Shown piece by piece: positions 12,396-20,545 of a stretch of DNA of 20,545 bases. The notes below the pieces were generated by a model. That model saw only the letters and a program-made list of their open reading frames with translations. It was not told the DNA's origin and made no database searches. The translations under genes and the position numbers were made by a program. The stretch covers positions 1 to 20,545 of IMG/VR virus record IMGVR_UViG_3300033141_003285; one strand, given 5' to 3'. The stretch is from a virus. Positions within the stretch are counted from its first letter, which is position 1. Each line of letters begins with the position of its first letter.

Positions 12396-12689
12396 ATGTT
12401 ATCAAAAAATTGTATTGTTTGTGAAAAAGAATATTTTAGAAAAACTAGTGTTAGATATTCAGAATGGGATAAATCTAAGTTTTGTAGTAATGAATGCAGA
12501 AAAGAATACTGACAAGTAGAAAATAATTGCATTATATGTTGAGATAAATTCATAGTAAAGAAATCTATGAAGGATAAACTAACTTGCTGTAGTGAAATGA
12601 TCAAAATTATCTGATTGACATGGATATGTTATGATAAAAGTTACTGATATTGTTTTATGAAAAAACTGGAAAGTAGAACATATTTATAA
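12396..12689 (+). CDS. HNH nuclease, N-terminal zinc-finger half (frameshifted gene)
   Basis: This 97-aa frame contains two Cys clusters typical of the zinc-binding front of phage HNH homing-type endonucleases: C6-xx-C9 with FCSNEC (C30, C34), then C45-xx-C48 with TCCSE (C64, C65). After residue 67 the sequence in this frame loses family character and stops. The +1 frame continues as a typical HNH sequence (SDGHGYVMIKV and onwards). One extra base in GAAATGATC (about 12594-12602) explains the break. This is therefore best read as the 5' part of a single broken gene of about 170 codons, unless the halves work as two peptides or a shift is programmed. It sits alone between two fibre genes, a usual place for free-standing homing nucleases. 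Confidence 0.6.
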
Positions 12690-12912
12690 TGTAGAACAAG
12701 ATTTATGAATAGAAATTAATACAAAAACACATTGTGTCCATCATATTAATTGAAAAAAAGATGATAATGATTTAGAAAATTTATGTTTAATGACTCATAA
12801 TGAACATAAATCTTTACATAATACTATTTTAAATTCGGTAATAAAAGAATTAATAGATAAAAATATAGTATTTTTTGATAAATCTGAAAAAATATATAAA
12901 GTAAGAGTATAA
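12631..12912 (+). CDS. HNH endonuclease, catalytic half
   Basis: This 93-aa frame starts at the ATG in the GYVMIKV strand; the preceding codons in the same frame (SKLSDGHGY) belong to the same domain, so the true protein likely began further upstream. It carries EH (16-17), VHHINGKKDDNDLENLCLM (36-54) and THNEHKSLH (55-63), the complete HNH core with its metal-binding His and Asn. The Gly of HHING is TGA, one of the clearest proofs of the recoded table. The function would be a Mg-dependent endonuclease that spreads into related phages lacking it. It is separated from its zinc-finger half by a one-base frame change, so activity is uncertain. Confidence 0.75.
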
Positions 12913-16778: not shown

Positions 16779-16805
16779 TTGACTTAAATTTTAAATCCTT
16801 ATAAT
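16779..16805 (+). promoter_or_regulatory. promoter of candidate noncoding RNA 2
   Basis: TTGACT (16779-16784), 15 bp, then perfect TATAAT (16800-16805), AG and the box TGTACATAAA (16809-16818). The -35 is embedded in TTGACTTAA, the same nine bases as in the promoter of RNA 1. The ten-base TTGACTTAAA recurs inverted at about 16864-16873 within the transcript. Confidence 0.75.
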
Positions 16806-16811
16806 AGATGT

Positions 16812-17004
16812 ACATAAAGTTTCAATCCTATATATGCAAAATCTAGAAATAGTTGTATAGGACTTTAAGTCAAGTAATCAGTGGTGATAGACCTCGTATC
16901 TAACTAAGCGTGATTACAAAACTTATGAATTAAAGGATACCCCCTTATATGTAATTGTTCGTTACATAGAATCAAGAAGAGTTTTGGTTACCTCTTCTTT
17001 TTTT
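16812..17004 (+). ncRNA. candidate structured noncoding RNA 2 (about 190 nt)
   Basis: The unit has a promoter, about 190 nt without a plausible gene, and a terminator. Visible helices: AAAGT (16816-16820) with ACTTT (16862-16866) enclosing CCTATATA (16827-16834) with TGTATAGG (16854-16861), capped near CTAGAAATAG, which can form a GAAA tetraloop; GTAATCA (16874-16880) with TGATTAC (16911-16917); TATGTAA (16948-16954) with TTACATA (16962-16968); then the terminator stem. GTATC (16896-16900) can also pair with GATAC (16936-16940) as a pseudoknot. I do not recognise tRNA, tmRNA, RNase P, a CRISPR RNA or a known riboswitch core. Confidence 0.6.
16974..17004 (+). terminator. terminator of RNA 2
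   Basis: AAGAAGAG (16974-16981) pairs with CTCTTCTT (16992-16999) around a ten-base loop and is followed by a T run to 17004. Confidence 0.8.
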
Positions 17005-17025
17005 CTTGCTTTAAATTAAAAAAGT

Positions 17026-19854: not shown

Positions 19855-20142
19855 ATGCCAATAAAAAACAGAATAAAAATCACTTTTAAAGAATTTTTAA
19901 AGAAAAAAGGTATAAAGATATATCAAATACAAAGTGTAAGTACTAGAACGGTAAATAATATACTTAAATCAGAACATAGTTGAAAGTATAATAAAAATTA
20001 CAGGTGAAAATTGCCCTATTTTCCTACAGAAAGGACTATAAGTCTCTTATGTTTAGAATTAGATATAACTTATCATGATTTAGAACAATTAATACAGAAT
20101 CAGTATAAAAGTAATAAAAAACTTGTAAAAAATAACGATTAA
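19855..20142 (+). CDS. XRE-like helix-turn-helix regulator (divergent)
   Basis: This 95-aa basic protein has KEFLKKKGIKIYQIQ (about 13-27), VSTRTVNNILKSE (28-40) and, after an insertion rich in Lys/Asn/Tyr, TISLLCLELDITYHDLEQLI (about 61-80). The order helix, turn, recognition helix (STRTVNNIL) and the closing 'icleLdIt..dLe' helix is that of Cro/CI-type HTH proteins, with an unusual loop of about 20 residues between the recognition helix and the last helices. It is the last gene before a terminator and a region with promoters, so it may regulate the noncoding loci or the operators at 15456 and 17026. Candidate early/late switch protein; the HTH call is moderate. Confidence 0.65.
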
Positions 20143-20165
20143 AGCCTTTTGGGGCTTTTTTTATT
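20141..20165 (+). terminator. terminator after the HTH gene
   Basis: AAAGCC (20141-20146) pairs with GGCTTT (20153-20158), loop TTTTGG, followed by a run of T to 20162. The stem begins inside the stop codon, a compact arrangement. Confidence 0.8.
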
Positions 20166-20182
20166 TTATATTAAAAATAAAT

Positions 20183-20209
20183 TTGCATTTCTTATTTTAT
20201 CATTATAAT
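20183..20209 (+). promoter_or_regulatory. promoter of candidate noncoding RNA 3
   Basis: TTGCAT (20183-20188), 15 bp, then perfect TATAAT (20204-20209), followed by the box TGTACATAAA (20215-20224), identical to that after the RNA 2 promoter. No gene begins downstream in the window. Confidence 0.65.
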
Positions 20210-20215
20210 ACAACT

Positions 20216-20309
20216 GTACATAAATTACATTCTCTCACAATAAAGCAATTTAGCCTGAACGGGTGTAATTTGCAAATAAGATATTGTTGTGAGAGACGAT
20301 GTCTTTTTT
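20216..20309 (+). ncRNA. candidate rod-like small RNA 3 (about 95 nt)
   Basis: TCTCTCACAATAA (20231-20243) pairs with TTGTTGTGAGAGA (20284-20296) over 13 bp with one G-U. The 40-nt loop can extend the rod through GCAA/TTGC, TTA/TAA and CC/GG helices to a TGAAC tip. A short AGAC/GTCT hairpin (20294-20304) with six T follows and might terminate it, although it competes with the main stem. No ORF is present. The transcript could also continue into the structured region downstream. Confidence 0.55.
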
Positions 20310-20545
20310 GTTACTTTAATAAATAGATGTAGTATATAAATAATAGTATTGCCTTTTTGATGGAAACAGAATCATATGAACCATGATACAAACTCAAAAG
20401 CACGGAACCTATACTAACCGAAGCTAGAGGCTTTATATACTACATCTATTTATTAAAATAGTTAACTTGGGATATATCGGCAACTAGAATGGATATATCA
20501 TAACTGAGGCTTACTTTAATTAGTAAGGGGGGAATAATTCTAGGA
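20310..20545 (+). other. gene-free structured region, candidate large RNA running off the window
   Basis: No plausible gene is seen on either strand. Beyond the 26-bp inverted repeat lie AGTTA (20460-20464) with TAACT (20501-20505), enclosing two copies of the palindrome GATATATC (20471-20478 and 20492-20499), which can pair with each other. CTTACT (20510-20515) and AGTAAG (20522-20527) form another hairpin. A GGGGGG run follows, and the window ends without a terminator. The succession of nested helices in a phage suggests the 5' part of a large ornate RNA, but this is inference. Confidence 0.4.
20315..20457 (+). repeat. perfect 26-bp inverted repeat around a 91-nt structured loop
   Basis: The arms 20315-20340 and 20432-20457 are exact reverse complements over 26 bases (start TTTAATAAATAG, end CTATTTATTAAA). 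Inside, AGTAT/ATACT, CTTTTTGA/TCAAAAG (one bulge) and ATCAT/ATGAT can form successive inner helices. No transposase, integrase or ORF is associated. It could be the stem of a large RNA, or a DNA element such as a replication origin. Confidence 0.85.

Follow-up and report, generated by a model that had tools for sequence, protein, structure and literature searches.

A candidate gene for a large structured noncoding RNA behind an attenuator-like leader in two unrelated TGA-recoded phages

Related RNAs and the present element

Large structured phage RNAs of unknown function are few in number. GOLLD and ROOL are large, ornate RNAs of phages and prophages, often located near tRNA islands, that form RNA cages (PMC12286853). 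OLE RNA, an ornate large RNA of bacteria, falls into a size class similar to that of the element described here, but it resides in the chromosomes of Gram-positive extremophiles rather than in phages, and no Rfam match links the two. With regard to transcription termination, the put RNA of phage HK022 comprises two stem-loops, as does the present leader, and acts through specific contacts with RNA polymerase, and the CI RNA of P4 follows the same plan of a short terminated and a longer read-through RNA that is predicted for this leader. HK022 put is a phage cis-acting RNA that suppresses the termination of early genes (PMC9378689), and the IsrK locus of prophage Gifsy-1 likewise uses a prophage promoter to yield one short RNA by termination and a longer one by read-through (PMC4825925). 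In the paper on code-25 phages of candidate phyla, noncoding RNA is nowhere mentioned (PMC10746230).

The window analyzed here is the complete IMG/VR record IMGVR_UViG_3300033141_003285 (20,545 bases), and its right-hand end probably belongs to a plus-strand phage gene, present only as its 5' half, whose product is a large structured noncoding RNA. Because the window is the whole record, the assembled contig breaks off within the element. A second carrier, the 36-kb phage IMGVR_UViG_3300033148_004051 (36,226 bases; hereafter G001), provides the complete element. Covariance models from Rfam were applied to the truncated window copy and to the whole G001 copy. A sequence-only reading of the window had likened its end to large ornate phage RNAs such as GOLLD and ROOL and had recommended such models; however, no match to GOLLD, ROOL, OLE, intron, RNase P or tmRNA was obtained on the element, either at the gathering score or at E<=10, where only sub-threshold, chance-like matches to unrelated families appeared. 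ARAGORN finds no tRNA genes in the window or in G001.

Thus, the comparison with described systems is one of kind. Like ROOL and GOLLD, the element is predicted to be a long, protein-free, highly structured RNA of a phage genome with unknown function; unlike them, it has a core of about 460 nt, lacks a tRNA island, matches no model and belongs to a different host group. The present leader would be, like HK022 put, a phage leader RNA bearing on termination, but its second stem-loop is the terminator, its two loops are complementary and its sequence differs between copies. Unlike IsrK and P4 CI, the product predicted downstream is a structured RNA rather than an mRNA. HK022 put and IsrK therefore resemble the leader in kind but not in sequence or layout. 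Separately, G001 contains a tRNA-like segment 12 kb from the element (L009 3380-3290, minus strand), whose T arm, GGTTCGAGTCC, is canonical and whose acceptor-like helix, GAATTATG/CATAATTC, has 8 bp; the segment was called by neither ARAGORN nor Rfam.

The element and its two copies

In-frame TGA codons align with GGN glycine codons of relatives at 113 of about 164 sites, supporting the view that the window phage reads TGA as glycine (code 25) and agreeing with the earlier attribution of this DNA to a recoded candidate-phylum phage; TGA also stands for glycine in G001. The window phage encodes a tape-measure tail protein, and G001 encodes a terminase of phrog_38, a portal of phrog_156 and a capsid protein with kinship to that of a TM7 phage. 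The genes flanking the element are wholly different in the two phages, the only other DNA that they have in common is a single 40-nt match (85%), and their protein similarity amounts to one weak HNH-like match, with none convincing. Given this near-absence of other DNA and protein similarity, the element is common to two unrelated phages. Window positions 20309-20545 are 94% identical to G001 over 237 bases (14 differences), with the final 113 bases 100% identical, and the identity begins exactly at the U run preceding the stem. The window contig ends within the 100%-identical part, which fits an assembly break at a sequence common to several genomes.

G001 was the only carrier recovered from IMG/VR, whether the query was an RNA pattern, a pseudo-translated version of the RNA or a phage protein. 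The records of related phages, mostly short fragments, contained no copy of the element, and BLAST against phages and plasmids returned short A+T-rich matches only. Pattern matches in genome contigs fell in Proteobacteria and were chance-like; a sequence model (R1) gave one weak match within a protein gene, which was discarded, and a search with a structure model (R2) yielded nothing new.

The main landmark of the window copy is a 26-bp perfect stem enclosing 91 nt (P1), as the sequence-only reading had described. This stem is real and far beyond chance: an inverted-repeat search and folding both place its arms at 20315-20340 and 20432-20457 (plus strand), the repeat extends to 29 nt at 97%, and perfect arms within 300 nt reached at most 15 across 60 Markov replicas of the window; in the real window, the second-longest is 12. 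The two further helical units claimed 3' of the stem were likewise recovered by folding, namely an 8-bp hairpin GAUAUAUC/GAUAUAUC at 20471-20499 (20471-20478/20492-20499) and a 6-bp hairpin CUUACU/AGUAAG at 20510-20527 (20510-20515/20522-20527), both on the plus strand and identical in G001. Between P1 and these hairpins lies TAGTTAA (20459-20465, plus strand), the 5' strand of a predicted helix closing a 3' domain, whose partner TTAACTA is past the end of the window contig and visible in G001 only (L009 15615-15609). In G001, the equivalents of the contig's last bases (20528-20545, plus strand) lead into the next helices, and the core runs about 230 nt further. From 20142 to the window edge, no ORF of at least 50 aa exists under code 25, which also agrees with the earlier description.

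The loop domain of P1 (20341-20431, plus strand; about 90% identical in G001) had been said to fold itself. Small plus-strand helices AGC/GCU (20399-20401/20423-20425) and CGG/CCG (20403-20405/20418-20420) are indeed predicted within it, but the 91-nt loop alone has a folding z of -0.2, no better than shuffles. The same is true of the 85-nt stretch after the stem (z -1.4), and significance therefore rests on the stem and on conservation. Taken entire, 20312-20545 reaches z -4.9; however, local windows of 150 nt in other parts of both genomes score similarly, so that folding energy alone proves little, and after this genome-wide control of both genomes it was dropped as proof by itself. A possible pseudoknot would pair 20344-20349 with 20411-20416 on the plus strand (UAGUAU/AUACUA in the window, UGGUAU/AUACCG in G001), with one compensatory and one wobble-compatible change between the copies; this evidence is weak because such a helix arises in 14% of random-substitution simulations. 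As for the conservation of pairing in relatives on which the sequence-only reading had placed weight, G001 keeps the structure, with one P1 pair mismatched and covariation between the two sequences short of significance.

In G001 (L009, minus strand throughout), folding places P1 at 16069-16058/15935-15924 and 16056-16043/15950-15937 and the TAGTTAA/TTAACTA closing helix at 15923-15917/15615-15609. Inside the 3' domain, helices GATATATC/GATATATC, CTTACT/AGTAAG and TTCTAGG/TCTGGAA are predicted, together with a long bulged helix from 15792 to 15641; the sequence of this 3' half of the element comes from the G001 copy alone. The G001 core of 462 nt (16067-15606) has a z of -4.7, folding better than 100 of 100 shuffles, and the part past the window end by itself gives -3.6 in the sense and -2.4 in the antisense direction. 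No protein gene spans the element in G001, the only relative, such a gene being what the sequence-only reading had named as its refutation, and none of the related loci examined has a longer stretch free of ORFs of at least 45 aa. A possible 34-aa ORF directly 3' of the closing helix (15605-15501) might be the real product. Past the RNA and this ORF lies a terminator-like sequence, CTAGA-GTAAAA-TCTAGTTTTTT, and beyond it a separate TTTGCA promoter for the early genes, directly upstream of which the element lies in the same orientation as the early operon. Hence the earlier impression of a large ornate phage RNA is borne out by a long, structured and protein-free continuation, but not as a GOLLD or ROOL RNA by Rfam.

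Promoter and two-hairpin leader

Just upstream of the element is a feature that was absent from the earlier description, a predicted promoter followed by a two-hairpin terminator leader. The small gene before it (19855-20142) looks HTH-like by eye and has no Pfam or PHROG match; it ends in an intrinsic terminator with a 7-bp stem and a T run (20141-20158, plus strand), two such terminators being found against 0.1 in shuffles. A motif scan then locates the promoter TTTGCA-16-TATAAT at 20182-20209 (plus strand). For TTTGCA-N15..18-TATANT, the window has one occurrence against about 0.5 expected, and G001 has three against about 0.7. In front of each copy of the element stands a promoter-like TTTGCA-N16/17-TATANT; the leader that follows it is about 95-100 nt long and contains two hairpins.

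In the window, folding predicts hairpin A (20220-20271, plus strand; 10 bp with G-U), followed by hairpin T (20278-20305, plus strand), which is intrinsic-terminator-like and leads into a U run. The loop of hairpin A, TCTCTCACAA (20231-20240), is the perfect complement of the loop region of hairpin T, TTGTGAGAGA (20287-20296). This loop-loop complementarity is perfect in both phages, spanning 10 nt in the window copy and 8 nt in that of G001, in differing sequences, and crossing helices of at least 8 bp in the leader arose in 0 and 1 of 1000 shuffles. The leader sequences have diverged between the two phages, and their architecture is shared. Thus, hairpin A, a terminator hairpin T and complementary loops, the features of an attenuator leader, are all predicted to be present. 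Assignment to the plus strand is supported by the promoter, by the terminators and by substitutions that can still pair as G-U on that strand.

A third leader was found in G001 ahead of an HNH endonuclease gene (L009 11702-11530, minus strand; promoter and leader within 11702-11515). Its hairpin A has 21 bp and its terminator hairpin T 12 bp (z -6.6), with nine complementary loop bases, AGTGAGACC/GGTCTCACT. At strict thresholds, three two-hairpin leaders with complementary loops were found across the two genomes against 0.1 expected, a comparison that is only indicative because the cut-offs were chosen once the first cases were already known. The three sit behind three of the four TTTGCA promoters, which are the only four in the two genomes. 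A looser scan for tandem complementary hairpins was swamped by chance.

Further loci of interest were noted alongside these leaders. Upstream of the structured RNA in G001, a weaker leader of the same plan (L009 16740-16580, minus strand) contains a TTACAG/CTGTAA hairpin, a segment TCATTAAT complementary to the loop of the next hairpin, and a T run. At L009 4020-3900 (minus strand), a TATAAT-like promoter precedes a pair of hairpins whose loops, TTAATACTA/TAGTATTAA, are complementary; the second has a gene's ATG at its end in place of a T run, and the arrangement is perhaps a translational version of the leader. Within the window, a second intergenic stretch (16785-17005) has a TTGACT...TATAAT promoter of its own, along with several hairpins and a terminator that is strong, and may encode a noncoding RNA of 190 nt, with a folding z of only -1.4; it starts with AGTTTCAATCC, recalling some CRISPR repeats. 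An HNH-like gene at 12396-12912 occupies two overlapping frames (12396-12689 and 12592-12912) and is possibly a frameshifted or split homing endonuclease.

Alternative readings and proposed role

Several other readings of the locus have to be set against a noncoding RNA gene. It is possible, though unlikely, that the element is a cis-acting leader controlling the genes behind it, for instance a put-like processive antitermination RNA or a long attenuator. Its position in G001, immediately upstream of the co-oriented early operon, the attenuator-like appearance of the leader and the precedent of HK022 put speak for this; however, the G001 RNA has its own terminator and the early genes a separate TTTGCA promoter, 460 nt is far longer than put, and the surrounding genes are entirely different between the two phages. 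Alternatively, the RNA might serve not as the product but as the regulatory leader or structured UTR of a small protein, of 34 aa in G001. The ORF begins with an ATG a few bases past the closing helix and stops just before the terminator (L009 15605-15501), but it is short and has no clear ribosome-binding site by eye, the window contig ends before the equivalent part, and a structured leader of 460 nt would be odd for 34 codons; this reading is improbable.

Near-identical copies in otherwise unrelated genomes, together with the 26-bp inverted repeat, could also be taken as signs of a mobile element (an intron, a MITE or another non-autonomous element) that hopped between phages. This is quite improbable, as the similarity continues far beyond the inverted repeat and peaks outside it, no intron model matches, and both copies are intergenic behind similar promoters with no sign of insertion in a gene; group I and group II introns were rejected, with no catalytic core by Rfam models. 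A replication origin, the main alternative offered by the sequence-only reading, or another DNA element would account for A+T-rich inverted repeats in an intergenic position, but no DnaA boxes above chance, iterons or skew switch were found, and promoter-like sites in one orientation lie ahead of both copies, making a DNA element of this sort very unlikely. A diverged GOLLD or ROOL RNA, suggested by size class, phage location and elaborate structure, is extremely unlikely in view of the lack of any covariance-model match even at E<=10 and of any tRNA island by ARAGORN. Since there is no Rfam family match, no tRNA island and no origin feature, the element is filed as a candidate new family of large structured phage RNA.

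The best reading is therefore that the element may be a new, transferable structured noncoding RNA of phages under attenuator control. Of the general features of a noncoding RNA gene, a promoter-like site, a terminator and the lack of a protein gene are seen, and the structure is kept across two sequences, with covariation short of significance. Transcription would start at about 20215, and part of it would stop at hairpin T, leaving a short transcript of about 95 nt; the remainder would pass hairpin T and produce the structured RNA. The balance between stopping and read-through would be set by loops A and T through their complementarity. The structured RNA may then act in trans on a host component common to the hosts of both phages. 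Such a role is the most likely one because the core is near-invariant across differently built phages and the leader has diverged freely, which suggests that the core has a conserved host partner and that the leader need only preserve the complementarity of its loops. The identity could also stem from recent transfer between the phages, so that the conserved partner is a step that we infer. A bolder version would make the element a new class of large RNA confined to TGA-recoded candidate-phylum phages, in which the terminated product of the attenuator acts in trans on other copies, giving a phage-specific RNA switch or immunity, and the core hits a conserved host target; taken whole, this version is distinctly unlikely.

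For the biology of these phages, the presence of a near-invariant core both in a phage with a tape-measure tail protein and in one unrelated to it suggests that the RNA is directed at the host. The leader, with its loop-complementary terminator, would constitute a compact control device that recurs in these genomes.
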